The notes under the pieces: generated by a model
Seen by the model: only the letters and a program-made list of their open reading frames with translations
Database searches by the model: none
Told to the model about the DNA's origin: nothing
Program-made: the position numbers and the translations under genes
DNA from: Rubripirellula sp.
GTDB lineage: Bacteria; Planctomycetota; Planctomycetia; Pirellulales; Pirellulaceae
DNA length: 34,263 nt
Direction of reading: 5' to 3'
NCBI GenBank assembly: GCA_029245125.1
Contig: JAQWPZ010000144.1
Span: forward strand, 1 to 34,263
Shown: piece by piece, positions 1,981 through 27,042 of the stretch
Layout of the letters: each line of letters opens with the position of its first letter
How positions within the stretch are numbered: the first letter of the stretch is position 1

Positions 1981-3948
1981 GTGATTGAAGATCGTCAAGT
2001 TAAGAAACTTCGTCGCCTGCTGTCGTCAGGTAAGACGTTAGCCCAATCGGCGTTGAGAACAGGGATGAGCGAGCGTACCGCAAGGAAGTATCGAAACATG
2101 GAACGACTGCCAAGTGAAACCCGAACGCCGCGAAGCTACCGCACGCGGCAGGACCCGTTGGAGGCGATATGGCCGGCGGTCGAGGAGCATTTGCGGCAGA
2201 GCCCGGGGCTACAGGCGAAAACGCTGCTGGAGTGGTTGTGTCGCGAGCATCCGGGCAAGTACGACCAGAGCCACTTGCGGACCCTTCAGCGGCGGATCAA
2301 GCAGTGGCGTGGCAGCGAGGGGCCTGCCAAAGAAGTTTTCTTTTCACAAGTCCATCACCCAGGCGACTTGAGCGCATCGGACTTTAGCGACATGAGCTCC
2401 CTGGATGTCACCATCGGTGGCCAGCACCATGCGCACATGGTCTATCACTTTGTGCTGACGTACTCCAACTGGGAAGCCGTAACACTCTGCTACACCGAAA
2501 GTTTTGAGAGTCTGAGCGAAGGACTTCAGAACGCGCTGCAGCGACTCGGAGGCGTGCCACTTCGGCATCGCACAGATCGACTCAGCGCGGCGGTGAACAA
2601 CCAGTGCGATCGCCGTGACTTCACACAGCGATACCAATCGTTGATGAAGCACTATGCGGTGACGATCGAGAAGACGCAGGCGCGGAGCCCCAACGAGAAC
2701 GGCGACGTCGAATCATCGCATCGTGTGTTCAAGACGGCGGTCGACCAAGCCTTGATGCTGCGTGGCAGTCGTGACTTTGCGAACCTTGAAAGCTACAAAG
2801 AATTCTTACAGTCGATTGTAGACAGTCACAACACGTCGCGCGGCAAGCGCGTGAGCGAAGACTTGGCGCAGTTGCGAAGCCTTCCGGCCAACCGCTTGGA
2901 GAGCGTTCGTATCGATCGTGTTCGTGTGAGTACCGGTAGCCTGATTCAAGTTGTCCGCAACACTTACTCTGTCCACAGCCGACTCATCGGAGAACAAGTC
3001 GAAGCACGGACGTACATGGATCACATCGAGATCTGGTACGCGCAGAAATGCGTTGATCGCTTTGCACGTCTGCGCGGCCGCAGCAAGCACTCGGTCAACT
3101 ACCGTCACATCATCGATTTTCTGGTACGTAAGCCCGGCGCGTTTGAGAACTACCGTTACCGCGACAGCCTGTTCCCGACGACGAACTTTCGAATGGCCTA
3201 TGACGCGCTACGTGAGCAGCACGACGAGCGGCGTTCTGCCAAAGAATACTTAGCTATTCTGCACCTGGCCGCCCGCGAGAACGAGTCTCAAGTGGATGCC
3301 GCATTGCGTGAGTTATTGGCAGAACCAGCGTTGCTTAGTGCGTCGTCGGTGCAACGCATTGTGCAGTCCGAATCAAGTCAGCTACCGCATCCGACCGACG
3401 TATCTGTCGAGCCAGCAGACTTGTCGAGTTTCGATAGCCTGCTGGACGAGACGGACAGTTGGTACAGCGACACGCCATGCATCGACGAACAGTGCATCGA
3501 CGAACAGTGCATCGACGAACAGTGCGCCGACGAACAGTGCGCCGACGAACAGTGCGATGAATCCATAACGGAGAGTTCTCCGGTAGACGACTCGAAGCGG
3601 GCTTCGGCTTGCAACGAAACTGTGATCGATAGTTGTGATGATTTTCAGACTCATGCCAAGGAGGGCAACCATGAAAACCCAGGACACGAACGAACTGTTG
3701 ACCAATCAACTCCGCGAACTGCGTTTGCCGGAGTTTCGGGAGAACTACGAAGCGGTAGCCAGGCGGGCCGAACAACAGACACTCAGCTACGAGCAGTACC
3801 TGCAGGAGTTGGCGTCGCTGGAGTGTCAGACGCGTCAGTCGAATCGCATCGAGGGGGCGCTGCGCCGAAGCCGCCTTCCTCTGGAGAAGACGCTGGAGAG
3901 TTTCGATCTGAAGCGATTGCCGACGAAGGTCTCGCGCCAAGTACGTAG
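1981..3948 (+). CDS. istA: IS21-family transposase IstA, with unusual C-terminal extension
   Basis: IstA is the DDE/RNase H-fold transposase of IS21-type elements and acts with IstB. The GTG start at 1981 is preceded by a good ribosome-binding site (GAAGGAGAG). Residues 1-50 form a helix-turn-helix ('SGKTLAQSALRTGMSERTAR'). The rve core follows, with likely catalytic residues D134 (SASDFSDM), D199 (HRTDRLSAAV) and E244 (NENGDVESS). The protein has 655 residues, against roughly 350-520 for most relatives. The excess is a low-complexity C-terminus carrying five CIDEQ/CADEQ pentads, followed by about 90 residues that overlap istB in another frame. The catalytic part looks intact, so the element may be active. 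Confidence 0.9.
   Translation: MIEDRQVKKLRRLLSSGKTLAQSALRTGMSERTARKYRNMERLPSETRTPRSYRTRQDPLEAIWPAVEEHLRQSPGLQAKTLLEWLCREHPGKYDQSHLRTLQRRIKQWRGSEGPAKEVFFSQVHHPGDLSASDFSDMSSLDVTIGGQHHAHMVYHFVLTYSNWEAVTLCYTESFESLSEGLQNALQRLGGVPLRHRTDRLSAAVNNQCDRRDFTQRYQSLMKHYAVTIEKTQARSPNENGDVESSHRVFKTAVDQALMLRGSRDFANLESYKEFLQSIVDSHNTSRGKRVSEDLAQLRSLPANRLESVRIDRVRVSTGSLIQVVRNTYSVHSRLIGEQVEARTYMDHIEIWYAQKCVDRFARLRGRSKHSVNYRHIIDFLVRKPGAFENYRYRDSLFPTTNFRMAYDALREQHDERRSAKEYLAILHLAARENESQVDAALRELLAEPALLSASSVQRIVQSESSQLPHPTDVSVEPADLSSFDSLLDETDSWYSDTPCIDEQCIDEQCIDEQCADEQCADEQCDESITESSPVDDSKRASACNETVIDSCDDFQTHAKEGNHENPGHERTVDQSTPRTAFAGVSGELRSGSQAGRTTDTQLRAVPAGVGVAGVSDASVESHRGGAAPKPPSSGEDAGEFRSEAIADEGLAPST
3478..3552 (+). 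repeat. 15-bp tandem repeat, five copies, inside istA
   Basis: Five consecutive 15-bp units (TGCATCGACGAACAG three times, then TGCGCCGACGAACAG twice) encode CIDEQ x3 and CADEQ x2. A sixth, broken copy follows (TGCGATGAATCC). The array is in frame with istA, so copy-number change would alter the protein without breaking it. Confidence 0.95.
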
Positions 3949-4708: not shown

Positions 4709-5848
4709 TTACCTTGCAAAGGGGCGACCGTAGAAATAGCCCTGGCCGAGGTCAAAGCCAAGCTCGCGACAGGTATCGGCTTCAGCTTCTGTTTCGACTC
4801 CCTCGGCCAAGGTGCGTATCTCGAGGTCGTGCACCATGGTGACGAGGGTTTCAACCATTTGTTGCCGCTGGCGGTCGCAGGAATCGATTCCGCGGATCAA
4901 CGAAATATCGAACTTTACGTAATCCGGAGACGATTCCATTAGTTCTGCCAGGCGAGCCTGTCCCGCGCCAAAATCGTCGTACGCCAATGCGATATCCAGA
5001 TTCTTCAGGTCAGACGAAATCGATCGCATCTGGGCAGGACTAGTGATGCTTGATTCATGGATTTCAAGAACAAGTGGAGTGTCCGGCACCAACTCTCGCA
5101 GCTTGGCCATCGAACGAATCAACTCTGCCGTATTCTCCATCTCCCGCGGATGCGTGTTCACGAATAATGTCGGGCTAACATCGCTGTTTTCGGATTCAAG
5201 ATTCTCGGAAGCCAAAGTGCCTTCCCAACGTAACATCTCGCTCAATTCGACTTCGACACTAAGCTGTTCTGCCGCCTTGAACATCGCAGCGACTAATTCA
5301 AGACCAAAAACTCGTCCCCGACCGAGCAATTCAAAGCCGACGGTGGTTCCTTGATCGAGTTGAATGATCGGTTGGAAGTGCGGTTTGACGAGCTTTTCTG
5401 ACATCAATCGGTCAAATTGAACTAATGCCAAAGCTTTGTCACAAACGTTCTTCGCCACTGTGCAGTTGGGCGTCAAATTTCCAGTTGATTCACAGCGAAC
5501 GCGAAATGGTGCTTCTGCAAAGTGAATCAAATCTTCTTCACCGATTTGGACTGGAACTTCTTTCTCGAGGCGTTCGCCATTGAGAAAGGTCCCATTGGTG
5601 CTATTTTCGTCTTTGAGCATTAACTTTTGTTGATTCAGCCACAGTGAGGCATGGTGTCCACTAACGGTGCTGAACTGCAATCTCAACGAAAGGCCCGAGT
5701 TACGGCCGATCGTAAATGGATGCTCGTCGACATGAACCTCAACAATCGGTTCACCATTCTGCGTTGGTCCGGACAAAATCCACGCGTTCTGCTTTTCAGC
5801 GATCTTGATTTGGCAAGAGTCGGATGTGGCGTTTTCGATAATCGACAT
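4709..5848 (-). CDS. FHA domain-EAL domain protein, predicted c-di-GMP phosphodiesterase
   Basis: This fuses a phosphothreonine-binding FHA domain (about residues 38-115; GR at 48-49, SGHH at 63-66, STNGTFLNG) to a C-terminal EAL domain (about 145-379). EAL domains hydrolyse cyclic di-GMP. The residues normally needed for catalysis appear present: E in 'FELLGR' (173), N in 'FVNTHP' (231), E in 'LEIHES' (262), DD in 'YDDFGAG' (291-292), K in 'YVKFD' (312) and E in 'LAEGVE' (349). The classic EAL triplet is ELL. The ATG at 5848 is preferred over a TTG one codon upstream. No membrane segment or signal peptide is seen, so it is cytoplasmic. It is divergent from the AAA+ and kinase-tubulin genes, with a 253-bp shared upstream region. 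Activity is inferred from motifs only. Confidence 0.85.
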   Translation of the reverse strand: MSIIENATSDSCQIKIAEKQNAWILSGPTQNGEPIVEVHVDEHPFTIGRNSGLSLRLQFSTVSGHHASLWLNQQKLMLKDENSTNGTFLNGERLEKEVPVQIGEEDLIHFAEAPFRVRCESTGNLTPNCTVAKNVCDKALALVQFDRLMSEKLVKPHFQPIIQLDQGTTVGFELLGRGRVFGLELVAAMFKAAEQLSVEVELSEMLRWEGTLASENLESENSDVSPTLFVNTHPREMENTAELIRSMAKLRELVPDTPLVLEIHESSITSPAQMRSISSDLKNLDIALAYDDFGAGQARLAELMESSPDYVKFDISLIRGIDSCDRQRQQMVETLVTMVHDLEIRTLAEGVETEAEADTCRELGFDLGQGYFYGRPFAR

Positions 5849-6101
5849 CAAGGCGGCCGGATAATGGCTGATGAAGGGGCGGAAGAAAGCGGTGGTCGCG
5901 TGATCCTTGTGACCCGGACAACCAGCCGTCTCTGACGGGGGGGGCAGTAGATGGTGCTCGTGCGATTCAAGCCTAGGTCAGGATGCTTGATGCGTGCGAC
6001 ATTCTGTCGGAAAACTCGGACGCCAAAATAGAAGCTACAGTTTGGCGGCGTTTGTCTGGAAAAATTGGGCGTCGATATCCTTTGTATGATTAGAAACCGC
6101 G
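5849..6101. other. Divergent intergenic region between FHA-EAL and AAA+ genes
   Basis: This spacer must hold the upstream signals of both divergent genes. A G8 run lies at 5937-5944. I could not identify a convincing promoter or operator. No supported gene is present; the open frames in it are not family-like. Confidence 0.5.
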
Positions 6102-7427
6102 ATGACCACGATAGCTGAAGAGATTCGAAGTTTTGAATCCAGTTGCTTGGGCAGTTTGTTGTCGGACGACACGTTCTGGCCAGCTGAGCCACAATCTTTC
6201 GATGAAGCCGGGTTGTCGACGACTTATGTTGAAGCGTTAGTGCTGAAGGTCATCCTCACAACTGGAACCATCAGTGGGCGTCACGTCTCGGAACGGTTGG
6301 GACTACCATTTCGAATGATTGAGCCAATGCTCGATACGATGAGAGCGAGAAAGTTGGTGACTCATGTGCGACCTGCCGCGCTCAACGATTATTATTTTTC
6401 GTTGACCGAAGAAGGTCAGCGGCACGCTCAATCGCACATGACACGATGTAGCTACGTTGGGCCTGCGCCAGTCTCGTTAAATGATTACTCGCTCAGTGTC
6501 GAAGCACAGGCAGCAGGCCTCGACCCGATTGACCGAGAGCAGTTGATGGCCGCTCTATCAACGATTTCATACCGAGAAGAACTTCTCGATCAACTTGGGC
6601 CTGCGATCAACAGTAACTCGGGACTCTTTTTATTTGGTGCACCGGGGAATGGTAAGACATCGATCGCGAGGTGTCTGACGGGGTGTCTTGGCCAAGAAAT
6701 TTGGATTCCTCATGCGATCCTAGATGACGGCAATTTGATCAAGTTGAAGGATGACGCTTTCCATCGTCCAGTGTCGGTTCCCGAGGCGGACGGGCAGATT
6801 TTAAAGACGCAGCAATGGGACCGGCGTTGGTTGCGAGTGCAACGCCCGACTGTGATCGTGGGTGGCGAGCTGGTGTTGGAGAACTTGGAGGTCAGGCACG
6901 ACCCTCGATCCAATATTTGCGAAGCGCCGCTGCAGATGAAAAGTAATTGCGGATGTTTGTTGATCGATGATTTTGGCCGACAACGCATCTCGCCAGCTGA
7001 ATTGCTGAACCGGTGGATCGTACCGTTGGAGAATCGTTGTGACTTTCTGACGTTACCGACAGGAAAGAAGATCCAGATTCCGTTTGAGCAATTTCTTGTG
7101 TTTTCGACAAATCTTGAACCCGATTCGTTAGTTGATGAAGCGTTTCTTCGCCGAGTTCCCTACAAGATTTTTGTTGGAGATCCGAGTCCGGATGAGTACC
7201 GGACGCTGATGGCAGATGTCTCTCAGCATCTCGGTTTTACGGTGACGCCCGAGGCAGCTGAACATCTTTTGCGTTTCTATCGTGCGAACGGCCGCCCGCT
7301 CCGACGCTGTCATCCACGCGATTTGTTGACCCAAGTGGCAAGTTTCTGTCGGTATCGAAAAATTCCACTCACGCTCCGGCCAGAGTATCTCGATCAGGCC
7401 TGCCGCAGCTATTTCAATCAGCTTTAA
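6102..7427 (+). CDS. AAA+ ATPase with N-terminal winged-helix-like domain
   Basis: The 441-residue protein has a helical, winged-helix-like N-terminus (about 40-115, 'VILTTGTISGRHVSERLGLP' and 'LTEEGQRHAQ'). A P-loop ATPase domain follows, with Walker A GAPGNGKTS (179-187), Walker B LLIDD (286-290), sensor-1-like 'VFSTN' (333-337) and a likely arginine finger in 'FLRRVPY' (350-351). A C-terminal helical lid follows ('GRPLRRCHPRDLL'). No signal peptide or membrane segment is seen. The stop is 36 bp before the kinase-tubulin gene, same strand, so the two are probably co-transcribed. Its substrate is unknown. The N-terminus could bind DNA or simply be a protein-protein module. Confidence 0.8.
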   Translation: MTTIAEEIRSFESSCLGSLLSDDTFWPAEPQSFDEAGLSTTYVEALVLKVILTTGTISGRHVSERLGLPFRMIEPMLDTMRARKLVTHVRPAALNDYYFSLTEEGQRHAQSHMTRCSYVGPAPVSLNDYSLSVEAQAAGLDPIDREQLMAALSTISYREELLDQLGPAINSNSGLFLFGAPGNGKTSIARCLTGCLGQEIWIPHAILDDGNLIKLKDDAFHRPVSVPEADGQILKTQQWDRRWLRVQRPTVIVGGELVLENLEVRHDPRSNICEAPLQMKSNCGCLLIDDFGRQRISPAELLNRWIVPLENRCDFLTLPTGKKIQIPFEQFLVFSTNLEPDSLVDEAFLRRVPYKIFVGDPSPDEYRTLMADVSQHLGFTVTPEAAEHLLRFYRANGRPLRRCHPRDLLTQVASFCRYRKIPLTLRPEYLDQACRSYFNQL

Positions 7428-7463
7428 GCAAGGCTTAGCCAGACTTTCACCCACGCGAATGAC

Positions 7464-10325
7464 ATGACACAGCTTGATTCATCCCGGATATGTCCAGGCT
7501 ATGAACCGATTCCTGGCTACGTGCTGGAAGCGCGGATTGGCCAAGGTGGATATGGGGAAGTTTGGCGGGCCAGTGCGCCTGGTGGGCTGAAGAAGGCTGT
7601 TAAATTTGTGTTCGGTTCGCACGAGGAGACGCGTGCTTTGAGGGAACTGAAATCCCTTGAGCGAATCCGCAGAGTACAACACCCCTTTCTGCTTACGTTG
7701 GAACGCTTTGAAGCGATCGAAAACCAGTTGGTGATCGTTACCGAATTGGCTGACGGATCCTTGGAACAAGTTTTCCGAGAGGCTTGTGCCAATGGTTCGT
7801 GCGGGATCGCAAGAGATGTGCTGATTTCGCACATGAATGATGTTGCCGATGCGCTTGACTACCTACACGAGAAACATCAGCTCCAGCATTTGGACATCAA
7901 GCCAGGCAACCTGCTGTTGTTTGGCGACCATGTGAAGGTTGCTGACTTTGGGTTGGTAAAAGATTTGGGCGAGGTTGAGTGCAGCGCCGTGGTCGGACTT
8001 ACTCCCACCTACGCACCTCCTGAGCTTTTTGATGGGCAACCCGGAGGAAATAGCGATCAATACAGTCTTGGCGTGATGTATCAGGAATTGCTGACGGGGA
8101 CGCGTCCTTTCAATGGGAGTACGATTGCCCAGTTGGCAACTCAGCATGTCCATGCCGCACCAAATCTTGACTCGTTGCCGGCACACGATCGACCGGTGAT
8201 CGCCAGAGCGCTCGAAAAGAATCCGGATCGACGATTTGAAAACTGCAAAGCGTTTGTGAAAGCCTTAGTGCAAGCGGGCAGTGTTTCGTTGGACTCGTCG
8301 CGTGACCACGTGACAACTTCATCGATTCAGGATGTAGATGGTAAGGTTGAGGATCTTCCTCAGTTGCAGTCACCGCAATCCCAAGTTACCGGCAAGCGAC
8401 AGGTGCTGGTAATTGCGCTTGGTGGTATTGGGGCAACTTGTCTGCAAATTATCGGACAGCGTTTTAGCGAAGCGCATACAGAAACTCCACTTGCGGTACA
8501 GGGAGTGTTGATCGACACAGATGCGGAGTCAATGCAGTCGGTTTTTATACCTGAAGGCGAAGGAGTCTATTCTCGGTGCAAGTTTTTGCACATTCCATTG
8601 AAGACTCCGCAGCAGTACCGTGATTCTGACACCAGTCGATTGAAATCCATTTCCCGCCGCTGGATCTATAACGTTCCCCGCAATGGAACAACAACGGGGA
8701 TGCGTCCTCTTGGGCGTTTGGCCTTGGTTGATCACAGTGAACAAGTTCGCAAAACGCTGCAGGAGTGCGTGAAATCGATCGCAGTTGGTTCAGAAGATCA
8801 AACGCCGATTGTTTATGTCGTTGGATCTTTGTGTGGTGGCACCGCCAGCGGAATGTATATTGATGTTGTCCATCTGTTGCGGCATTTATTGGACGAAGCG
8901 GGATCGGCCGAGACGCCAATACGGTCATTACTAGTGACTCCGCCACTGGAAAACGGGGCCAGCCATCCGCTGGCGTCTCATTCTGCAATAGCTGCAATGA
9001 AAGAGATTCGGCATTGCTTGAATGCTGCGAATGGATATCCCGGTGATGTCGGAGTCGGTTGGTCGGGTGTTCCGGCGGCTCGGAGCCCGCTTCGAGACGC
9101 GTATTTCATTTCCTTGCCGCATCGTGGAAGCTTGATGCGTTCAGTAGAGGAGTCAATTTCACAGTATGTGTTGACTGATAGTGGAGGCGGCAACTCACTG
9201 ATGGCATCAGCGAGAGAGTTGCAATCGAACAATACGCAAGGGTTGGTTCGATGTTCAGTGCGCTCGTTTGCCGCGACACCTTTGGTTGATCAGCGTCAGG
9301 CACGCAGTGAAATGTATGTCCCACCGCTGGTGAGAAAGCTGTTGCTCAGTTGGCTCGGACTTCCTTCGCAGGCTCGGGTCGACGCCGTTGGTTTGAGTCA
9401 GCGAGTATTGCGGCGGAGTGGATTGTTGGCGGAGGACTTGAGTGATGACGCGCAGGCTTGGACAGGTTGTGCAAACAGCCTTCGTCGGGAATTGGCTGTA
9501 TGCCTCAGCGACCGCAGAGCAGATGTGACCACGGTCCTTGAATGCCTGAAATGTGTTGACCAATGGTGTGACACTCAGTCGACGCCTCAGGTCCAAGTTG
9601 TGCGTCAGATGACAGCGAATATTTCGGGGAAAATGGAGCGATACGCTACAACGCTTGCGATGGGAATTGTCGAAACGAACAAGATGCAATCGGTCGATCA
9701 GGACCCCTGGCAGTCCTTGCCTGCGGAAGTGCAGCAGCGGTTCGCAGCATTGATGAAGGAGGTTCACTCACGTTTCGAGAGCGAGTGGTTGGTGCGGCCA
9801 ATGATGCAATCGCGGTTCGAGGTAGAGGCGGTTTCGATGATCCGCGTCATTTCCGCTGGTACCGAGCCGCTGCTGAGCGGATTGCTTGATGAACCAGAAT
9901 CCGAATTGAGCGATCCACATGATGGTCCCGCGTTGTCTACCTCAACCAGCCTCCTGGATGTTAAGTCACATGCGAGCATCAAAGGGGTGTTCGAAACGGC
10001 ACGCCGTTATCAAGCGGAGAGCCCGATGCTTACGGTGGAGCAGGCGGTGATGGCGGCAAAACCACCACTGCTCTCGCTGGGCGGGCTGCATCGCTTAATG
10101 TTGATTGTGGGTAGCGAACACGAAAAACAACAATTGGAATCACAGGTTCGTGCTGCTTACGACGGTGCCGTCTCGGTTGCCATCGTTCAAGGCGCGATGC
10201 CACATTTGATCCACGAAGCGCAGCAGATTGATCTCGCCCGCATCATCTCTCGGCTCTCGCAGATCAATGGCGGTAATGACCAGGTGACAGCGAGATTGGC
10301 AAGTCGCTCGGATATAAAATGGTAG
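7464..10325 (+). CDS. Ser/Thr protein kinase fused to a tubulin/FtsZ-like (Tubulin_2) domain
   Basis: Residues 1-275 are a PknB-type kinase: glycine loop GQGGYG (26-31), lysine K47 (AVKFV), catalytic loop HLDIKPGN (142-149, HLD replacing HRD), DFG at 161-163 and 'YAPPE' in the P+1 region. All core catalytic residues are present. After a Ser/Gln-rich linker, residues 312-480 match the tubulin-like superfamily: 'VLVIALGGIGATC' (first nucleotide loop), 'LIDTDAESM', 'GMRPLGRLALVDH' and the signature-like 'SLCGGTASGM' (455-464) in place of GGGTGTG. The remaining C-terminal half is not assignable. No transmembrane helix is seen. The gene follows the AAA+ gene closely and converges with the next gene, 24 bp away. 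GTP binding and filament formation are inference. Confidence 0.85.
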   Translation: MTQLDSSRICPGYEPIPGYVLEARIGQGGYGEVWRASAPGGLKKAVKFVFGSHEETRALRELKSLERIRRVQHPFLLTLERFEAIENQLVIVTELADGSLEQVFREACANGSCGIARDVLISHMNDVADALDYLHEKHQLQHLDIKPGNLLLFGDHVKVADFGLVKDLGEVECSAVVGLTPTYAPPELFDGQPGGNSDQYSLGVMYQELLTGTRPFNGSTIAQLATQHVHAAPNLDSLPAHDRPVIARALEKNPDRRFENCKAFVKALVQAGSVSLDSSRDHVTTSSIQDVDGKVEDLPQLQSPQSQVTGKRQVLVIALGGIGATCLQIIGQRFSEAHTETPLAVQGVLIDTDAESMQSVFIPEGEGVYSRCKFLHIPLKTPQQYRDSDTSRLKSISRRWIYNVPRNGTTTGMRPLGRLALVDHSEQVRKTLQECVKSIAVGSEDQTPIVYVVGSLCGGTASGMYIDVVHLLRHLLDEAGSAETPIRSLLVTPPLENGASHPLASHSAIAAMKEIRHCLNAANGYPGDVGVGWSGVPAARSPLRDAYFISLPHRGSLMRSVEESISQYVLTDSGGGNSLMASARELQSNNTQGLVRCSVRSFAATPLVDQRQARSEMYVPPLVRKLLLSWLGLPSQARVDAVGLSQRVLRRSGLLAEDLSDDAQAWTGCANSLRRELAVCLSDRRADVTTVLECLKCVDQWCDTQSTPQVQVVRQMTANISGKMERYATTLAMGIVETNKMQSVDQDPWQSLPAEVQQRFAALMKEVHSRFESEWLVRPMMQSRFEVEAVSMIRVISAGTEPLLSGLLDEPESELSDPHDGPALSTSTSLLDVKSHASIKGVFETARRYQAESPMLTVEQAVMAAKPPLLSLGGLHRLMLIVGSEHEKQQLESQVRAAYDGAVSVAIVQGAMPHLIHEAQQIDLARIISRLSQINGGNDQVTARLASRSDIKW

Positions 10326-12354: not shown

Positions 12355-14538
12355 ATGTTGATGCAACACCGAATTACTTACTGTCTGTCGTTTCTATTTT
12401 TGTCTGTTGTCGCGGCACCCGCCGCCGACAAACCCAACATCATCTACATCATGTCAGACGATATGGGATTCTCTGATATTGGCTGTTACGGCAGCGAAAT
12501 CGAAACGCCCCATTTAGATTCCTTGGCAGCTGGCGGAGTGCGTTTTACTCAGTTCTATAACACTGCACGCTGTTGCCCAACTCGTGCCAGCCTCCTATCA
12601 GGATTGTATCCCCATCAAGCGGGGGTTGGTCACATGATGAATGATCGCGGGCACGATGGTTATCGCGGCGATTTGAATCGCAGTTGCGTCACGATTGCTG
12701 AAGCACTGAAACCGGCGGGTTACAAGACTTACATGTCGGGTAAATGGCATGTCACGAAAGTCATCAAGCCTCAACAAGAGGAAGACAAAAACAATTGGCC
12801 GATGCAACGAGGGTTTGATCGTTTTTATGGCACGATTCATGGTGCCGGTAGCTTTTTCGATCCAAACACCCTGACCCGCGGGAACCAGTACATTTCACCC
12901 TATGATGACTCCGAATACACACCCGGCCAAATGGCCAATGGTGAGTACTACTACACGGACGCGATAGCCGATCACGCCACCCGGTTCATCACGGAACATC
13001 ACAATCAGGCCGATGATCAGCCGTTCTTTCTGTACGTCAGCTTCACGGCCGCTCATTGGCCGATGCATGCTCTACCAAAGGATATTGAAAAATACGAAGG
13101 AAAATATGATGGCGGCTATGACGCGATTCGAAATGCCCGTTACAAAAAAATGGTTCAGCTGGGTTTAGTAGACAAAGCAAGCACAGTGAACTGGGCGATT
13201 CCTGATGATTGGAAGGAGACAACGCATTGGGAATGGGATAAACGAAATATGGAAGTTTATGCGGCGATGGTTGACAGCATGGACCAGGGAATCGGCCGCA
13301 TAATTGAAGCATTGAAAAACACTGGACAGTTTGAAAACACACTCATTTGCTTCTTTCAAGACAATGGAGGATGCGCCGAGAACTACGGACGGGGAGGAGT
13401 GGGGCGGGCACGCGCAGAGCAGCCTGAATTGGCATCGCTTGCGGATGACTATTTGCAACCTGACATGACGCCTAAGCAGTCTCGAGACGGCTTTAAGATG
13501 CGGACTGGGAAAGGTTCGATGGCGGGGCCCGCCGATACGGCAATTGGTTACGGGCGCGGTTGGGCGACGGTTTCGAACACACCCTTTCGCGAGTACAAAC
13601 ACTGGGTCCACGAGGGTGGTGTATCGACACCTCTGATTGCCCATTGGCCAAGTAAGATCACCCGGCAAGGAGAGCTCGAAAGTACGCCCGGGCACCTCAT
13701 TGATTTGATGGCGACCGCCGTTGATATTGCCGAAGCAACCTATCCCAAGGTGTACCATGACGGTCAGGCGATTAAGCCGATGGAGGGTAAGAGTTTGGTT
13801 CCGGCGTTCTTGGGACAACCGCTCGAGCGTGACGCCATTTATTGGGAGCACGAGGGGAATCGTGCTATTCGGGTTGGAGACTACAAATTGGTTGCCAAGG
13901 GTGAGAAAGGTCGCTGGGAGCTGTATGACATTTCCAAAGACCGAAGTGAACAAACCGATCTGAGCGAAGCGATGCCAGATCTGGCCGAAGAGTTAGCGGA
14001 AAAATGGATGGCTTACGCCACCCGTGCAAATGTGTTGCCGATCAATCCGAAGTCGAACCAAAAGGCTGATAAAGTCAACAGAAAACAACGCCGGTTCGTG
14101 CTTCGGCAGGGTGATGATCTAGCTCGCGATGTTGCACCGTTTGTGCAAAAACGTTCCTTTGAATTGGTCGCCAACGTGAAGGTGGAGGGAGATGGTGTGG
14201 TCGTGGCGCAAGGCGGAGTCACTCACGGGTGGGCTCTCTACATTCAAAATGGTGAACTTTGTTTCGCCAAGACTCAAAATGGTGAACGTAAAGTCATCGA
14301 AAGCGGGGCGAAACCAACCGGTGAGGTGTCGTTAACCGTTTCATTCTCGCGGCAGGGAAAAGTTGCGATTTGCGTCGATGGCCAAGAGGTCAAACAGGGA
14401 GATTTTCAGTCAGCTCTGTCGACTCAACCCTTGGACGGTTTGCAAATTGGGCAAGACACCAACGGAAATGTCGGAGACTACGAATCGCCTTTTCCAATTC
14501 AGGGAAAGGTGAAAAAAGTGATTCTGGAATTAGAGTAA
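12355..14538 (+). CDS. Secreted arylsulfatase with C-terminal beta-sandwich-like domain
   Basis: A signal peptide (about residues 1-24, ending APAA) precedes a formylglycine-dependent sulfatase (alkaline-phosphatase superfamily). Metal-binding acidic residues lie in 'MSDDMGFSD'. The maturation motif is C73-C-P-T-R77, followed by ASLLSG; C73 is the residue normally converted to formylglycine by an FGE-type enzyme, which is not in this window. 'YMSGKWHV' and 'ICFFQDNGG' carry further active-site residues. Residues from about 595 form an extra beta-rich module ('SFELVANVKVEGDGVVVAQG', ending 'KVKKVILELE'), common in planctomycete arylsulfatases. At 727 residues it is longer than a minimal sulfatase for this reason. 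The likely role is removing sulfate from polysaccharides outside the cytoplasm; the substrate cannot be told. Confidence 0.92.
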   Translation: MLMQHRITYCLSFLFLSVVAAPAADKPNIIYIMSDDMGFSDIGCYGSEIETPHLDSLAAGGVRFTQFYNTARCCPTRASLLSGLYPHQAGVGHMMNDRGHDGYRGDLNRSCVTIAEALKPAGYKTYMSGKWHVTKVIKPQQEEDKNNWPMQRGFDRFYGTIHGAGSFFDPNTLTRGNQYISPYDDSEYTPGQMANGEYYYTDAIADHATRFITEHHNQADDQPFFLYVSFTAAHWPMHALPKDIEKYEGKYDGGYDAIRNARYKKMVQLGLVDKASTVNWAIPDDWKETTHWEWDKRNMEVYAAMVDSMDQGIGRIIEALKNTGQFENTLICFFQDNGGCAENYGRGGVGRARAEQPELASLADDYLQPDMTPKQSRDGFKMRTGKGSMAGPADTAIGYGRGWATVSNTPFREYKHWVHEGGVSTPLIAHWPSKITRQGELESTPGHLIDLMATAVDIAEATYPKVYHDGQAIKPMEGKSLVPAFLGQPLERDAIYWEHEGNRAIRVGDYKLVAKGEKGRWELYDISKDRSEQTDLSEAMPDLAEELAEKWMAYATRANVLPINPKSNQKADKVNRKQRRFVLRQGDDLARDVAPFVQKRSFELVANVKVEGDGVVVAQGGVTHGWALYIQNGELCFAKTQNGERKVIESGAKPTGEVSLTVSFSRQGKVAICVDGQEVKQGDFQSALSTQPLDGLQIGQDTNGNVGDYESPFPIQGKVKKVILELE

Positions 14539-22314: not shown

Positions 22315-23865
22315 CTAGTCGTTTGTCTGCATGCTGCCCCACCAGTCCTTATTGGGCTGCCAGTTGGGATCAAGCATTGCAGCATGAGATTTTTCTAATC
22401 GCTGCTTGAGTTCGGTCTGAATGCGTCGAAATCGGGCCTCGGTCCGCTCAGGGTCGTAACGGGGGTCGGGTTCTGGAAATTTGGCTCCTACCGATTGCAA
22501 CCATTCGTCCAGTTGCTCAGCCATTCGCTTTGTCCTTGCGGGGTGGGTTCGCGCTAGATCGCTCTGCTCGGTCGGATCCTGATCCAAGTGATAGAGTTCG
22601 TTGCGACCGTCTTCGTAGTAATGGATCAACTTCCACTCGCCCTCACGAAATAAGGAACTTGGTTCACCGCCCTGGTTATCGTAATGCGGGTAGTGCCAAT
22701 ACAGTGGCCGCGCATCAATCTCGTCACCCGTGAGCAGTGGAACCAGCGAAACGCCATCAATGTGTTGAGCTGGATTGAGAGGCAAGTCGCAGAGTTCGAG
22801 AAGAGTTGGATAGAAATCAGCACCTGTGACCGGCGTATCACAGGTCGATCCTGGTTTTGTCGTTACCGGGTAGCGGATGTAATAGGGTTCTCGGATTCCA
22901 CCCTCCCACTGACGTCCTTTGCCACCACGCAGAGGCAGATTACTGGTTGCGTAGGCATCACCCGAAGAAACTCCGCCATTGTCACTCGTGAAAATTACAA
23001 TTGTTGATTCGGTTAGGCCACATTCGTCCAGGGTATCGAGTACTTGCCCAACAGCGGCATCGGTCGTCTCAACCATCCCGGCGTACACTGGGTGGTCCTG
23101 TATTTGCCGAACAGGCAATGTGCGATCAATTTTGAAACGAGACGTGCCGTCGGGGAGTTTCGGGGCTGCCTGCTGATACTTTGTCCACAATTCTTTGGTG
23201 GTTTGGACAGGAGCATGCACGCTGTAGAACGACAACATCGCAAAGAACGGTTCGTCTTGATGTTGTTTGATGAACCCGGCCGTTTCATCACCCAGACGCA
23301 AGGTCAAGGATTCACCTGGTGATCCATTTTCCATTTGAGGATTTTTGTAGGGTGAGAAAAAACCACCGGGAGGGCTGCCCCGATGATGGCCACCCACATT
23401 GAAATCAAATCCGTGGTCAGTTGGGAGTGAACCTTCCCCGCCCAAGTGCCATTTGCCGGCGAAGAACGTCGTGTAGCCAGCCTGTTGTAACGCCTCGGCC
23501 AAGGTGATGTCTTCGCTAGGGAGAGCGTGAACGTAGTCAGCGGGCAGTAAAGGGTCATCACGTTTCCAGTCCATTCCCGAACGGGCGCCGATCCATTGTG
23601 TAATCCCGTGTCGCGCTGTGAACTTCCCCAGTTGAATGCTCGCCCGAGATGGACTGCACACTCGACAAGTGGCATAGCCCTGCGTGAAACGCATGCCAGT
23701 CCTCGCTAAGTTGTCGATGTTCGGGCTGCGGTAAAACGTGCTGCCTTCGACCGACAAGTCATGCAAGCCCATGTCGTCGACCAGGATCAAGACAACGTTT
23801 GGTCGCTTGGCAGACGCGAAACTGCAGGCAAGGCAGATAAAGCAAAGGGCAATCAGAAAACGCAT
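22315..23865 (-). CDS. Secreted sulfatase
   Basis: The ATG at 23865 is chosen because a signal peptide follows at once ('MRFLIALCFICLACSFASA'); a longer frame from 23991 would bury it. The 516-residue protein has the sulfatase layout: 'VVLILVDDMGLHDLSVEG', the maturation motif C70-S-P-S-R74 with 'ASIQLGKF', 'YTTFFAGKWHLGG', and 'IVIFTSDNGG' with a C-terminal 'YHLDQDPTEQSDLA'. C70 is the expected formylglycine position. It lacks the C-terminal extra module of the other sulfatase. The substrate is unknown. Its start lies 122 bp from the UGT gene upstream. Confidence 0.93.
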   Translation of the reverse strand: MRFLIALCFICLACSFASAKRPNVVLILVDDMGLHDLSVEGSTFYRSPNIDNLARTGMRFTQGYATCRVCSPSRASIQLGKFTARHGITQWIGARSGMDWKRDDPLLPADYVHALPSEDITLAEALQQAGYTTFFAGKWHLGGEGSLPTDHGFDFNVGGHHRGSPPGGFFSPYKNPQMENGSPGESLTLRLGDETAGFIKQHQDEPFFAMLSFYSVHAPVQTTKELWTKYQQAAPKLPDGTSRFKIDRTLPVRQIQDHPVYAGMVETTDAAVGQVLDTLDECGLTESTIVIFTSDNGGVSSGDAYATSNLPLRGGKGRQWEGGIREPYYIRYPVTTKPGSTCDTPVTGADFYPTLLELCDLPLNPAQHIDGVSLVPLLTGDEIDARPLYWHYPHYDNQGGEPSSLFREGEWKLIHYYEDGRNELYHLDQDPTEQSDLARTHPARTKRMAEQLDEWLQSVGAKFPEPDPRYDPERTEARFRRIQTELKQRLEKSHAAMLDPNWQPNKDWWGSMQTND

Positions 23866-23987
23866 GGCAAACCCTGGGTGGTGAAAAAACAAAGGCTGAA
23901 CGATTGTATCCCGACCAGAACGGCTGGGGGGGATTGCGTCTAGGAAAGCGGTGCAAAAGTGGTGACCAGAAATTCGTGTGTCTTGAA

Positions 23988-25217
23988 TCACGAATGTTCG
24001 GATGCAGCCGCTCCAAGCTTTTCAATTTCCGCCGCCGCAATGGCGGGGCTATCGGTCAACTGAAGACGTCGTTGAATATCGGGCAGCGTCTGTGACGAAT
24101 CATTTGCGAGTAGGTTCGCGAGGGTATCGGCCAGTTGATGATCCTGCTTTAACCAGCGTCCAACGCCAAGCTTTTCCACCCGGGTTGCGTTGTCGAATTG
24201 GTCAAACGCGAAGGGTCGAATCACCTGTGGGATACCGGCAGCCATCGCTTGCGATGTGGTTCCGATCCCGCCGTGGTGCACGATAGCGCTGCAGTGGGGA
24301 AGTAATTGGCCAAGCGAAACATAGGGCAGAGCGCGCACGGTTTCGGGAAGATTCGCTGGGAAGTTTTCAGGGTGAGAGGAGAGCAACAGGCCGCTCCGTT
24401 GCAGTTTTTGGCAAGCCGCAGTCGCTTGTTCAAAAAATTTGCGGCAATGCTGATGGGCCGTGCCAGCGGTGAATACGATCGGGCGGTCTACAGGCGGATC
24501 GAACGAATTGCCGTTTACGTCATCAAGTGGAAAACCACAGTGAACTAATTGGGAGCAAAAAGACTTGGTGGACGGGGCGTACCAATCGGGAAACATTCCC
24601 AATACTCTGTCCGGCGACAACCACCATTGATCCATGATGCGTCGCACAGCCGGCAAATTATATTCACGCCGTTGTCGATTGACTTTCCCTCGAATGATCG
24701 GGTCCAACACTGCGTTATCGGCAAACCAATAGGTCATTCGCATTGCCCACTGCGGCTTTGACAATTCAAACCACCATGGCGAAAGTCGTGGTGGATCTTG
24801 GAGAGTTCTCAAAGTGACCGGTTGCGGTAACACCGTTGCTAACGGCGTGCCGGGATTCGCATCGCGGAAAATCCTGGATGCCAAATCAAGCGGATGGGCG
24901 ACCAGGACGGTTTCGCCTGGTTTGTGATAGCGGTGGATGACCTGCTGGTGCAGCGGCAAGTAATTAGCAATGATCAATCGGAATACAGCGATGGGGCCGC
25001 GAACTGGCTTCCAGACGCTGGCTGTGCCGATGGCGTCATCAAATTGTTGTTGGCTGATGACCGGTTCAACCTGCAGACCCTCCGCGGCAGCGATTTCTGC
25101 GTAGGGTTCGGCTAACGAAATAATCACTTCATGACCTTGATCGCGAAGTCGCTTACCAATTGCGACCATCGGATTGACATCGCCACGTGAACCGGGGGCG
25201 GAAAGAATTGCACGCAT
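23988..25217 (-). CDS. UGT-like glycosyltransferase (GT1 family)
   Basis: The ATG at 25217 is preferred to a TTG at 25235. It gives the usual N-terminus 'MRAILSAPGSRGDVNPMVAI' and has AGGAAG upstream. The 409-residue GT-B protein carries the UGT donor signature 'HHGGIGTTSQAMAAGIPQVI' and 'PFAFDQFDNATRVEKLGVG'. Such enzymes glycosylate small lipids or aglycones, or act in antibiotic and glycolipid decoration. The start is only 7 bp from the stop of the upstream sigma54-type regulator, so the two are co-transcribed. The regulator may act elsewhere. Confidence 0.9.
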   Translation of the reverse strand: MRAILSAPGSRGDVNPMVAIGKRLRDQGHEVIISLAEPYAEIAAAEGLQVEPVISQQQFDDAIGTASVWKPVRGPIAVFRLIIANYLPLHQQVIHRYHKPGETVLVAHPLDLASRIFRDANPGTPLATVLPQPVTLRTLQDPPRLSPWWFELSKPQWAMRMTYWFADNAVLDPIIRGKVNRQRREYNLPAVRRIMDQWWLSPDRVLGMFPDWYAPSTKSFCSQLVHCGFPLDDVNGNSFDPPVDRPIVFTAGTAHQHCRKFFEQATAACQKLQRSGLLLSSHPENFPANLPETVRALPYVSLGQLLPHCSAIVHHGGIGTTSQAMAAGIPQVIRPFAFDQFDNATRVEKLGVGRWLKQDHQLADTLANLLANDSSQTLPDIQRRLQLTDSPAIAAAEIEKLGAAASEHS

Positions 25218-25224
25218 TTTCTTC

Positions 25225-27042
25225 CTAGCGCTCAATGTCGTATTCGCTCAGTTTTCGGTACGCCGTCGCTCGGCTGATGCCCAGCAGTTGTGCCGCTTCG
25301 GGGACATTACCGCCCGTTCGCTGCAATGCTTTGCGGATCAAACGCTTTTCCCATTCGTCGATTCGCAACGTCTCCATCCTGCTCAGTCCGGTATCCCGAA
25401 GTCCCAGGTCTTCGGTCTCAATCGCCGGATCATCTGCCATCACGACTGCGCTGTCGATGACATTGCGCAGCTGACGCACGTTGCCCGGCCACGGGTAGTC
25501 GAGCAAACGGTTCATTGACTGCTCCGTGATGGATAGATCACTGCGGCCATGTTGGATGCGAAAATGATCCAGGAAGTGTCGAGTTAGCAGCTCGATGTCT
25601 TCGCCCCGCTCGCGAAGCGGTGGAACATACAACTCAAACACACTTAGACGATAAAACAGGTCCTCGCGAAACTTTTTGTCACGAACAATTTCAGCTAGGT
25701 CGCGATTGGTTGCCGCGATCACTCGCACGTCGACCAACACTTCCTCAGTGGCACCGACAGGCAAGAAAGGATGCCCCTCCAGAATTCTCAATAGCTTGGC
25801 TTGGCCCTCGAGGGTAAGCTCACCGATCTCATCAAGGAATAGCGTGCCAGTGTGAGATTGTTGAAACCATCCAATGTGATCGCTGTCTGCGCCGGTAAAC
25901 GATCCTTTCTTGTGACCAAATAATTGGCTCTCCATTAGATCGCGAGGAATCGCGGCGCAATTGACGGTAAGCATGGGACGCCGCACTCGCGGGCTGGCTC
26001 GATGGACGGCTCGCGCAACGAGTTCTTTTCCCGTACCACTTTCCCCTCGAATCAACACGCTTCCACTTGCGCGGCCAACGCGTTCGATCTTGGCTTTCAG
26101 TTTGCCCATGATCTTGCTGGTGCCGATCAATTCGTCCGTTTCCGCGTTACGGTCGGCAATCCGTCGTTTTTCGCTGCGGAGCTTGTCGTTTTCAAAAGCT
26201 CGAGTCAAACCGACCGCGAGAAGCCTGCCCGCGGCGACCGCCAATTCGAAATGTGTGTCATTGAACCCGGTTTCTTGGCGATATAGATGCAGGACGCCTA
26301 GATTGTTGTTACCACTGTCGAGTGGGACGTAGATCGTGTCGGACCATTGTTCGTCACGGCTCAAATCGGCCGGCCGCGATGCATCGTTGATCCAAATCGC
26401 TTCGCCCTCGCGAACCACCCTTCGGATGAGTCCCTTTCCGAGAGTGACCGTATCGCTTTTGTCGGCCGGTGTGACCCGCTGTGGCTTGAGGCGACCGTCA
26501 CCCGAATCAAACGACAGTCCCACCACATCTGCTCCGGTTCGGTCTCGCAGCAAATCGATCACTGTGTCGATCACTTCGTCCGGATTATCTGATTTCAGTA
26601 GGTGCAGACTGAGCGTGTATAGGTCAAGGAGGTAGCCCGCATTCGCGACGCTGGCCATTGGGTCCTCATTTTCAATGAGGAGCGATTTTTCGGTCGCAAA
26701 ATCTTGAATGATCGTTTGCGTGGTGGGGCCATCATCGAAACCGTCCATTGGTGATTCAACCAATTGAATGTCGGTACTGCCCACCGAGATCAGCGTTTTA
26801 TCCAGAAGCCGAGCGTGGTCCGTTTTTTGTCCATTGACCAGGGTGCCATTCCGGCTGCTCGTGTCTCGCAGGTGCCAGTTTCCGTCTTCGAAATAGACGA
26901 CGGCATGAAAGCGAGAGCTAACCGGGTCTGTAAGCATGATCTCGCAACTTGAACCCCGTCCAATGTGCATTGGACGCGAGGTATCCAAGAGGAACTGCTT
27001 GCCTTTTTCTGGCCCGCTACGAACCGACAGATAAGCAACCAC
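25225..27042 (-). CDS. FHA-GAF-sigma54 activator (NtrC-like) with Fis-type HTH
   Basis: An N-terminal FHA domain (about 25-95; 'MHIGRGSSCEIML', 'SSRFHA', 'SSRNGTLVNG') is followed by a GAF-like domain (about 140-285) and a sigma54-interaction AAA+ domain (305-535). Walker A is GESGTGKE (333-340). The sigma54-contact loop is GSFTGA (380-385), a variant of GAFTGA. Walker B is LFLDE (401-405). A Fis-type helix-turn-helix (578-598, 'NVPEAAQLLGISRATAYRKL') ends the protein. It starts at GTG 27042. FHA in place of a receiver suggests control by a Ser/Thr kinase. Target promoters are unknown. Confidence 0.92.
   Translation of the reverse strand: MVAYLSVRSGPEKGKQFLLDTSRPMHIGRGSSCEIMLTDPVSSRFHAVVYFEDGNWHLRDTSSRNGTLVNGQKTDHARLLDKTLISVGSTDIQLVESPMDGFDDGPTTQTIIQDFATEKSLLIENEDPMASVANAGYLLDLYTLSLHLLKSDNPDEVIDTVIDLLRDRTGADVVGLSFDSGDGRLKPQRVTPADKSDTVTLGKGLIRRVVREGEAIWINDASRPADLSRDEQWSDTIYVPLDSGNNNLGVLHLYRQETGFNDTHFELAVAAGRLLAVGLTRAFENDKLRSEKRRIADRNAETDELIGTSKIMGKLKAKIERVGRASGSVLIRGESGTGKELVARAVHRASPRVRRPMLTVNCAAIPRDLMESQLFGHKKGSFTGADSDHIGWFQQSHTGTLFLDEIGELTLEGQAKLLRILEGHPFLPVGATEEVLVDVRVIAATNRDLAEIVRDKKFREDLFYRLSVFELYVPPLRERGEDIELLTRHFLDHFRIQHGRSDLSITEQSMNRLLDYPWPGNVRQLRNVIDSAVVMADDPAIETEDLGLRDTGLSRMETLRIDEWEKRLIRKALQRTGGNVPEAAQLLGISRATAYRKLSEYDIER

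Follow-up and report, generated by a model that had tools for sequence, protein, structure and literature searches.

Introduction

Makarova and Koonin (2010; PMC2875224) described FtsZl1, a family of tubulin-like proteins that corresponds to the Pfam family Tubulin_2 (PF13809), and noted four planctomycete members in which the tubulin-like domain is fused to a protein kinase; statements about this and the other papers cited below refer to the parts of each that our search covered. Here we examine a Ser/Thr kinase-tubulin fusion of this type (KT), together with the genes around it, from Rubripirellula sp. (Planctomycetota; Pirellulaceae; assembly GCA_029245125.1, a draft of 7.06 Mb that is 91% complete). 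The window analysed is the whole 34,263-base contig JAQWPZ010000144.1. The fusion itself is already known, having been published in 2010 (PMC2875224). Kinases with a tubulin-like domain have been described in Planctomycetota, a phylum from which FtsZ is given as absent (PMC11032199), FtsZl1 is listed in Gemmata massiliana (PMC4672568), and a study of cell division in Planctopirus (PMC6952346) touches on FtsZl1-type tubulins, in the part covered, only by citing the 2010 paper. We found no experimental function for FtsZl1-type tubulins in the literature searched, and the covered parts of that literature held no link between these tubulins and FHA-EAL proteins, GGDEF proteins or cyclic di-GMP (c-di-GMP); bioRxiv preprints, supplementary files and most subscription journals lay outside its scope. 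The means by which planctomycetes divide and take their shape in the absence of FtsZ are a standing question.

We find that KT genes are regularly accompanied by a gene for a protein with an FHA and an EAL domain (FHA-EAL), a gene for an AAA+ ATPase and, in some lineages, a gene for a GGDEF protein. These genes very likely form one functional unit, and on balance we lean towards reading the window as carrying a single copy of a signalling unit conserved in planctomycetes, composed of FHA-EAL, AAA+ and an FtsZl1-type KT, in which a phospho-relay links a tubulin-like scaffold to c-di-GMP domains. As far as the literature searched goes, what is new here, and open to test, is the conserved FHA/c-di-GMP partner.

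Conservation of the gene neighbourhood

In the window the AAA+ open reading frame (ORF; 6102..7427, forward strand) is followed after 36 bp by that of KT (7464..10325, forward strand), as a preliminary description of this DNA had set out. The FHA-EAL gene (4709..5851, reverse strand) diverges from the AAA+ gene, and the 250-bp region between them (5852..6101) probably holds the promoters of both; a sigma-70 promoter scan placed none there and was uninformative, with 1 match against a mean of 3.1 in shuffled sequences. No GGDEF gene linked to the unit was found in the window.

The neighbourhoods of Tubulin_2 genes were compared across 146 genomes of the window's order, 65 of which carry Tubulin_2, and 120 genomes of another family of the class, 25 of which gave a match at 1e-60. 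From the order we examined all 70 Tubulin_2 places, the window included, with the locus L002 added, and 21 of the 27 places in the other family (leaving out those in genomes G531, G500, G464 and G526 and two in G518). The 92 stretches gave 86 loci with both kinase and tubulin parts once L046, L048, L070, L073, L074 and L085 were dropped, the tubulin ORF of L085 having no kinase part that we could find. Neighbours were counted by profile search of six-frame ORFs; an initial clustering of neighbours had undercounted FHA-EAL (53 of 66), and the gene calls are longest-ORF picks that may be wrong.

Near KT in the 86 loci we find FHA-EAL in 79, AAA+ in 69, both in 65, and a match to the GGDEF-neighbour profile in 43. 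The AAA+ gene is thus conserved beside kinase-tubulin genes, as the preliminary description had expected; treating AAA+ and KT as the pair nevertheless captured only part of the unit, and the still more constant FHA-EAL gene was overlooked. Six of the seven KT loci that lack FHA-EAL (L039, L047, L077, L089, L096 and L156) lie near the end of a contig on one side or both; in L077 part of the gene is still visible. In L002, the closest relative of the window and the sole relative locus in named genomes (a Rubripirellula metagenome-assembled genome), the FHA part alone was found (6044-6379), and its similarity to the window breaks off at base 5540 of the latter.

The layout of the unit differs between lineages. 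In the other family of the class, FHA-EAL, AAA+ and KT follow one another in this order on one strand in 16 of 21 loci, with gaps that range from overlaps to about 270 bp, and in six of the 16 a GGDEF gene precedes them; the same four-gene layout of GGDEF, FHA-EAL, AAA+ and KT is found in L056, from the window's own order. Among the relatives of the window the FHA-EAL gene is either divergent from the AAA+ gene (the window, L061, L064, L071, L072, L082, L100 and others) or directly downstream of KT, while in a third set it stands directly upstream of KT, often with the GGDEF gene between FHA-EAL and AAA+.

Tubulin_2 genes without the kinase have different surroundings. The non-fused places of the order (L046, L048, L070, L073 and L074) gave no KT, FHA-EAL, AAA+ or GGDEF-neighbour match, and in a Pfam scan the tubulin genes of L048, L073 and L074 carry Tubulin_2 and no kinase. 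Of the places outside the order, L117-L122 and L124 were matched by neither the FHA-EAL nor the AAA+ profile; L117 and L121, which lie at contig ends, matched none of the four profiles. The want of partner genes at the non-fused places indicates that the unit accompanies the kinase-fused form. Tubulin_2 is rare outside the class (14 of 294 genomes of the phylum sample), and no kinase-fused Tubulin_2 was seen there among the places fetched.

The kinase-tubulin protein

KT has 953 residues. Its kinase domain (residues 19-259; 7518..8240) matches Pkinase in Pfam with E 2.7e-34, and its FtsZl1-type nucleotide-binding domain (residues 315-517; 8406..9014) matches Tubulin_2 with E 9.7e-26, at 91.3 bits against a cut-off of 27; this is the one Tubulin_2 match in the assembly. 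The kinase residues K47, H142, D144, D161 and G163 are kept in all 86 KT proteins collected, and F162 is Phe in 85 and Tyr in one, which upholds the intact PknB-like kinase (K47, HLD, DFG) fused to a tubulin-like domain that the preliminary description had recognised. Judged by these residues, the kinase is very probably active. Within the activation segment, position 174 is Ser in 83 of the 86 proteins (the window's S174 among them) and Thr in three, and T180 is Thr in all. The two motifs singled out earlier in the tubulin domain, GGIGATC (residues 320-326) and CGGTASGM (residues 457-464), are present, and their glycines are widely kept (G320 in 86 of 86, G321 in 85, G458 in 86 and G459 in 84). 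The second motif covers the T4 signature GGGTG(S/T)G, for which the window has CGGTASG. Compared with L002, the ratio of nonsynonymous to synonymous substitution (dN/dS) is about 0.03 for AAA+, 0.06 for the kinase and 0.14 for the tubulin part with the C-terminus, values that are rough because dS, at 1.4-1.5, is near saturation.

An AlphaFold2 model of residues 305-953, built from an alignment of 56 of 64 usable sequences, has a pLDDT of 84.6 and a pTM of 0.78. It gave 41 PDB fold matches at E <= 0.001, by title tubulin-superfamily proteins or complexes that hold tubulin, with Bacillus cereus TubZ at the top (E 4.1e-06) and a fold of the TubZ/CetZ/FtsZ kind. Among the 50 matches listed the query-normalised TM-scores are 0.21 to 0.28; such low values are to be expected of a long protein with a large extra helical region, and the match is therefore partial. 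In the model, residues 518-953 (9015..10322) comprise the remainder of the fold, a long helical region, whose long helices fall at model residues 337-505, and, C-terminally, a strand-helix-strand-strand part (strands at model residues 571-578, 599-603 and 610-619, near the end); in the description of FtsZl1 proteins, a coiled-coil region precedes a C-terminal domain that is mostly helical (PMC2875224). A search of PDB sequences with the tubulin profile returned no tubulin and only matches to the helical region, such as apolipoproteins and designed helical bundles, so that the fold assignment draws on the structure model and on Pfam. According to this model, the C-terminal part of KT is a tubulin-superfamily fold, as had been proposed.

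A predicted tubulin fold also invites a reading in which these genes encode a cytoskeletal filament system: KT would polymerise, phosphorylation would control its assembly, the AAA+ protein would sever or unfold the filaments and FHA-EAL would be a mere accessory regulator. This extends the model of the preliminary description, of whose phosphorylation-controlled filament the tubulin fold has stood. The conserved glycines speak for such a system, as does the absence of any FtsZ_C match at E <= 0.01 in the 91%-complete assembly, where 13 of 14 control genomes gave one; the latter also supports, for this assembly, the lack of FtsZ that the preliminary description noted as frequent in planctomycetes. 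On the other side, the filament part of that model stands on weaker ground. In FtsZ the T7 loop carries the catalytic acidic residues, and no FtsZ-type T7 motif was seen by eye in the aligned H7-H8 region of 66 proteins (L067 and L075 are uncovered there), which makes dynamic FtsZ-like filaments doubtful. T6-H7 could not be confidently identified in FtsZl1 (PMC2875224, section 4), and FHA-EAL, the supposed accessory, is a more constant neighbour than AAA+ (79 against 69 of 86). We regard a filament system as rather unlikely; that the tubulin part forms nucleotide-dependent assemblies of some kind is a tentative suggestion.

The AAA+ ATPase

The AAA+ protein (441 residues) has a Walker A, a Walker B, a sensor 1 and an arginine finger, and the motifs GAPGNGKT (Walker A; 6636..6659), LLIDD (Walker B-like, ending in DD and not DE), STN and AFLRR are conserved in 56 aligned sequences. 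No Pfam family matched above its cut-off, and only weak sub-threshold matches of AAA type were found. A model based on 53 of 64 sequences (pLDDT 88.5) has 785 PDB matches at E <= 0.001; the 50 listed look AAA+ by title, and among these the best is an uncharacterised Pyrococcus furiosus protein (8p49), followed by Lon and RuvB. Searched as sequence against the PDB, the protein was matched mainly in the P-loop region. The N-terminus is modelled with a helix-helix-helix-strand-strand topology, and residues 38-106 weakly match the MarR-type regulator OhrR (E 0.019), in agreement with the earlier description of a P-loop AAA+ protein with a winged-helix-like N-terminus.

Spastin and Msp1 occur among the PDB matches of both the AAA+ sequence and the AAA+ model, as a filament-severing role would have it; this is a generic AAA+ similarity, however, and among the matches of the model both rank behind the Pyrococcus protein, Lon and RuvB. 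The winged-helix-like N-terminus and the RuvB match bear on another possibility, a gene-regulation unit under phosphorylation control in which the AAA+ protein binds DNA and KT and FHA-EAL act as its sensor, and the wide spread of related AAA+ genes, with a match in 111 of the 146 genomes of the order, would sit well with it. Winged helices bind proteins too, and the tubulin domain would be left without a role; we hold this arrangement to be improbable.

The 51 best AAA+ matches (477 bits or more), read by eye, all lie in genomes with Tubulin_2, and the next-ranked matches include genomes without it. This co-occurrence speaks for the unit, as do 12 of the 17 KT loci with no AAA+ gene nearby (L043, L080, L088, L090, L091, L093, L098 and L101-L105), whose genomes hold one of these 51 matches in another place. 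As the genomes are related and the reading was by eye, the co-occurrence is no test with independent points. A related but separate AAA+ gene, represented by L076 4569-6284 in the window's own genome, is present in many genomes of the order (about 45% identical in the own genome and 45-53% elsewhere) and lies away from KT genes where we looked.

Tubulin relatives are also known from GTPase-centred conflict systems (PMC7159879), and a conflict or defence role like that of the GTPase-tubulin and MoxR-vWA systems described there would have several points in its favour: tubulins are present in the GAP1-N2 conflict systems (PMC7159879), the P-loop region of the AAA+ protein is weakly similar to IetA/IteA (PADLOC E 1.5e-07; NCBIfam E 2.6e-05), and the kinase matches the PD-T4-6 and mad6 models. 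The latter matches are to the general kinase domain, though, and those to IetA/IteA span 51-61 residues round the P-loop, at 23.6 bits against an NCBIfam cut-off of 510. Pfam scans of 20 window ORFs showed nothing of vWA, nuclease or protease type apart from an IS21 transposase, and the unit is conserved in two groups. A defence system is, in our estimation, very improbable. The IetAS defence ATPase IetA was considered as an identity for the AAA+ protein and rejected (23.6 against 510 bits, 51 residues only, no full-length match).

FHA-EAL and the two forms of its c-di-GMP domain

FHA-EAL (380 residues) combines an FHA domain, a reader of phosphopeptides (residues 47-111; 5519..5713, reverse strand; E 4.6e-16), with an EAL domain of c-di-GMP phosphodiesterase type (residues 147-377; 4721..5413, reverse strand; E 1.5e-40). 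Seven residues are catalytic or metal-binding in EAL domains, and six (G, R, S, H, N, G) are typical of FHA domains. The window EAL keeps all seven: E174, N232, E263, D292, D293, K313 and E350 (ENEDDKE), of which E174 was assigned through the Pfam-covered region and the family alignment, since the alignments shown to solved EAL domains begin no earlier than residue 192. In the FHA domain all six residues are intact in 78 of 79 FHA-EAL proteins, the window's included, and the remaining row is gapped at the first four positions.

The EAL domain, on the other hand, occurs in two forms. Scored over the 79 proteins, all seven residues are present in 42 (the window among them) and zero to four in 37; none has five or six. 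Six degenerate proteins were scanned with Pfam, where EAL passed its cut-off in four, fell short of it in L042 and went undetected in L052. The form of EAL is mirrored by that of the GGDEF neighbour. Beside the 42 complete EAL domains the neighbour is intact in eight loci, degenerate in none and unmatched in 34; beside the 37 degenerate ones it is degenerate in 34, intact in one (L103, which also has a degenerate copy) and unmatched in two, unmatched here meaning no match to the GGDEF-neighbour profile, so that other GGDEF genes may be near. All six matched neighbours in the other family of the class are intact. Judged by their active-site residues, these counts show that EAL and GGDEF share one state, apparently catalytic in some loci and degenerate in others. 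The GGDEF-neighbour cluster (C3) is mixed, with REC-GGDEF-CBS or GGDEF-CBS proteins in the degenerate form and GGDEF without a receiver match in L056 and L123, and orthology of all these neighbours is accordingly not claimed.

For the window, the complete set of residues makes it fairly likely that EAL is an active c-di-GMP phosphodiesterase. The assembly contains nine GGDEF matches, from which c-di-GMP signalling is likely to be present in the organism. When the state of EAL is placed on the KT tree four changes are needed, of which the starred branches force only one, and the division into active and degenerate forms may go back to a single old split rather than to many parallel losses.

FHA-EAL genes also occur away from KT, and three of the nine examined (L132, L134 and L135) adjoin a gene with a kinase-part match, in keeping with a kinase-FHA link. 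The stretches concerned are L132 3882-8078, L134 7948-12046 and L135 7642-11765; in the two scanned with Pfam (L132 and L134) the kinase-like gene encodes a protein kinase domain together with DUF5939, to which L132 adds a cyclase match that narrowly exceeds the cut-off. The only two other genomes sampled from the window's genus (G113 and G117) have no Tubulin_2, yet FHA-EAL relatives are present in both.

Other genes in the window were recorded as well. A further FHA signalling protein, an FHA-GAF-sigma54 activator with HTH_8, is encoded at 25225-27042. An IS21-type transposase gene (1981-3948; NCBIfam NF033546, 203.5 bits) lies 760 bases from the FHA-EAL gene and is not a shared neighbour among the neighbourhoods of relatives compared. 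Two sulfatase genes are found at 12355-14538 and 22315-23991; sulfatases are abundant in this group of planctomycetes.

Discussion

Our comparison of gene neighbourhoods, coupled with residue conservation and structure models, suggests a model for the activity of the unit. The KT kinase would phosphorylate itself or its neighbours, and the FHA domain would bind the phosphorylated site and so bring EAL to the tubulin-like scaffold; that this FHA domain reads phosphorylation made by the KT kinase seems to us quite likely. In the active form, as in the window, local breakdown of c-di-GMP could then depend on, or act upon, whether the scaffold is assembled or which nucleotide it carries. The degenerate form may retain these contacts, with binding of c-di-GMP or of a protein in place of catalysis. 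The AAA+ protein, probably a ring, would be the likely remodeller or disassembler of the complex, although we consider it an even question whether it acts on KT itself.

Several observations weigh against this model. FHA domains prefer phosphothreonine, whereas the likely activation-loop site of the kinase, S174, is nearly always Ser. No biochemistry on any part of the unit was found in the literature searched. The AAA+ gene is not nearby in 17 of the 86 KT loci. The unit is patchy, and as Tubulin_2 is absent from 81 of the 146 genomes of the order it is not essential and is dispensable for many relatives. Six of the nine orphan FHA-EAL genes (L125, L126, L129, L130, L131 and L133) have no neighbouring kinase-part match. 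In the tubulin domain, the T7 motif, which was not seen, is joined by T4 position 461, which is Ala in the window and Gly in 73 of 86. With 37 of 79 EAL domains degenerate, c-di-GMP hydrolysis cannot be the common function, and with four changes on the tree, one of them forced, the coupling of EAL and GGDEF does not represent many independent events.

The conserved neighbourhood of KT suggests an as yet unstudied signalling switch based on a tubulin-like protein. More speculatively, it could be a dedicated planctomycete system that couples c-di-GMP to a tubulin-like protein through phosphorylation, with KT as the writer, FHA-EAL as the reader that also removes the messenger, a GGDEF partner, where present, as the source of the messenger, and the AAA+ ring returning the complex to its starting state. 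Within part of the family the two c-di-GMP enzymes would jointly have lost catalysis and become binding or scaffold parts, with the phospho-reader and the kinase left intact. A defined unit of three or four genes, with an intact kinase, an intact phospho-reader and a paired loss of EAL and GGDEF catalysis, offers concrete and testable partners for these tubulins. Overall, the interpretation in the preliminary description is partly supported.

Compared with the FtsZl1 proteins of 2010, the window protein belongs to the same domain family. Most members of that set, though not all, lie in operons with vWA, GTPase, OmpA-like and kinase genes, while Pfam scans of 20 window ORFs found no vWA, GTPase or OmpA, and the covered parts of that paper (PMC2875224) name no FHA-EAL, GGDEF or AAA+ gene as a partner of its planctomycete members. 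The kinase-tubulins of PMC11032199 are likewise treated there, in the part covered, without their gene neighbourhood or c-di-GMP partners. With EAL phosphodiesterases of solved structure, for example 4rni, 2r6o and 3sy8 (RocR), the window protein shares the EAL domain, in which it has the seven checked catalytic residues; unlike these, FHA-EAL proteins carry an N-terminal FHA domain, and catalytic residues have been lost in nearly half of the loci. With TubZ, CetZ and FtsZ, KT shares the predicted fold of the nucleotide-binding part, and it differs from them in having no FtsZ_C match, no T7 motif that we could see, a large helical region and an attached kinase. In the pairs PknB-GarA and PknH-EmbR an FHA protein is linked to a Ser/Thr kinase. 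The unit described here resembles them in its conserved combination of FHA domain and kinase, and differs in that the FHA domain is fused to EAL and the kinase to a tubulin.

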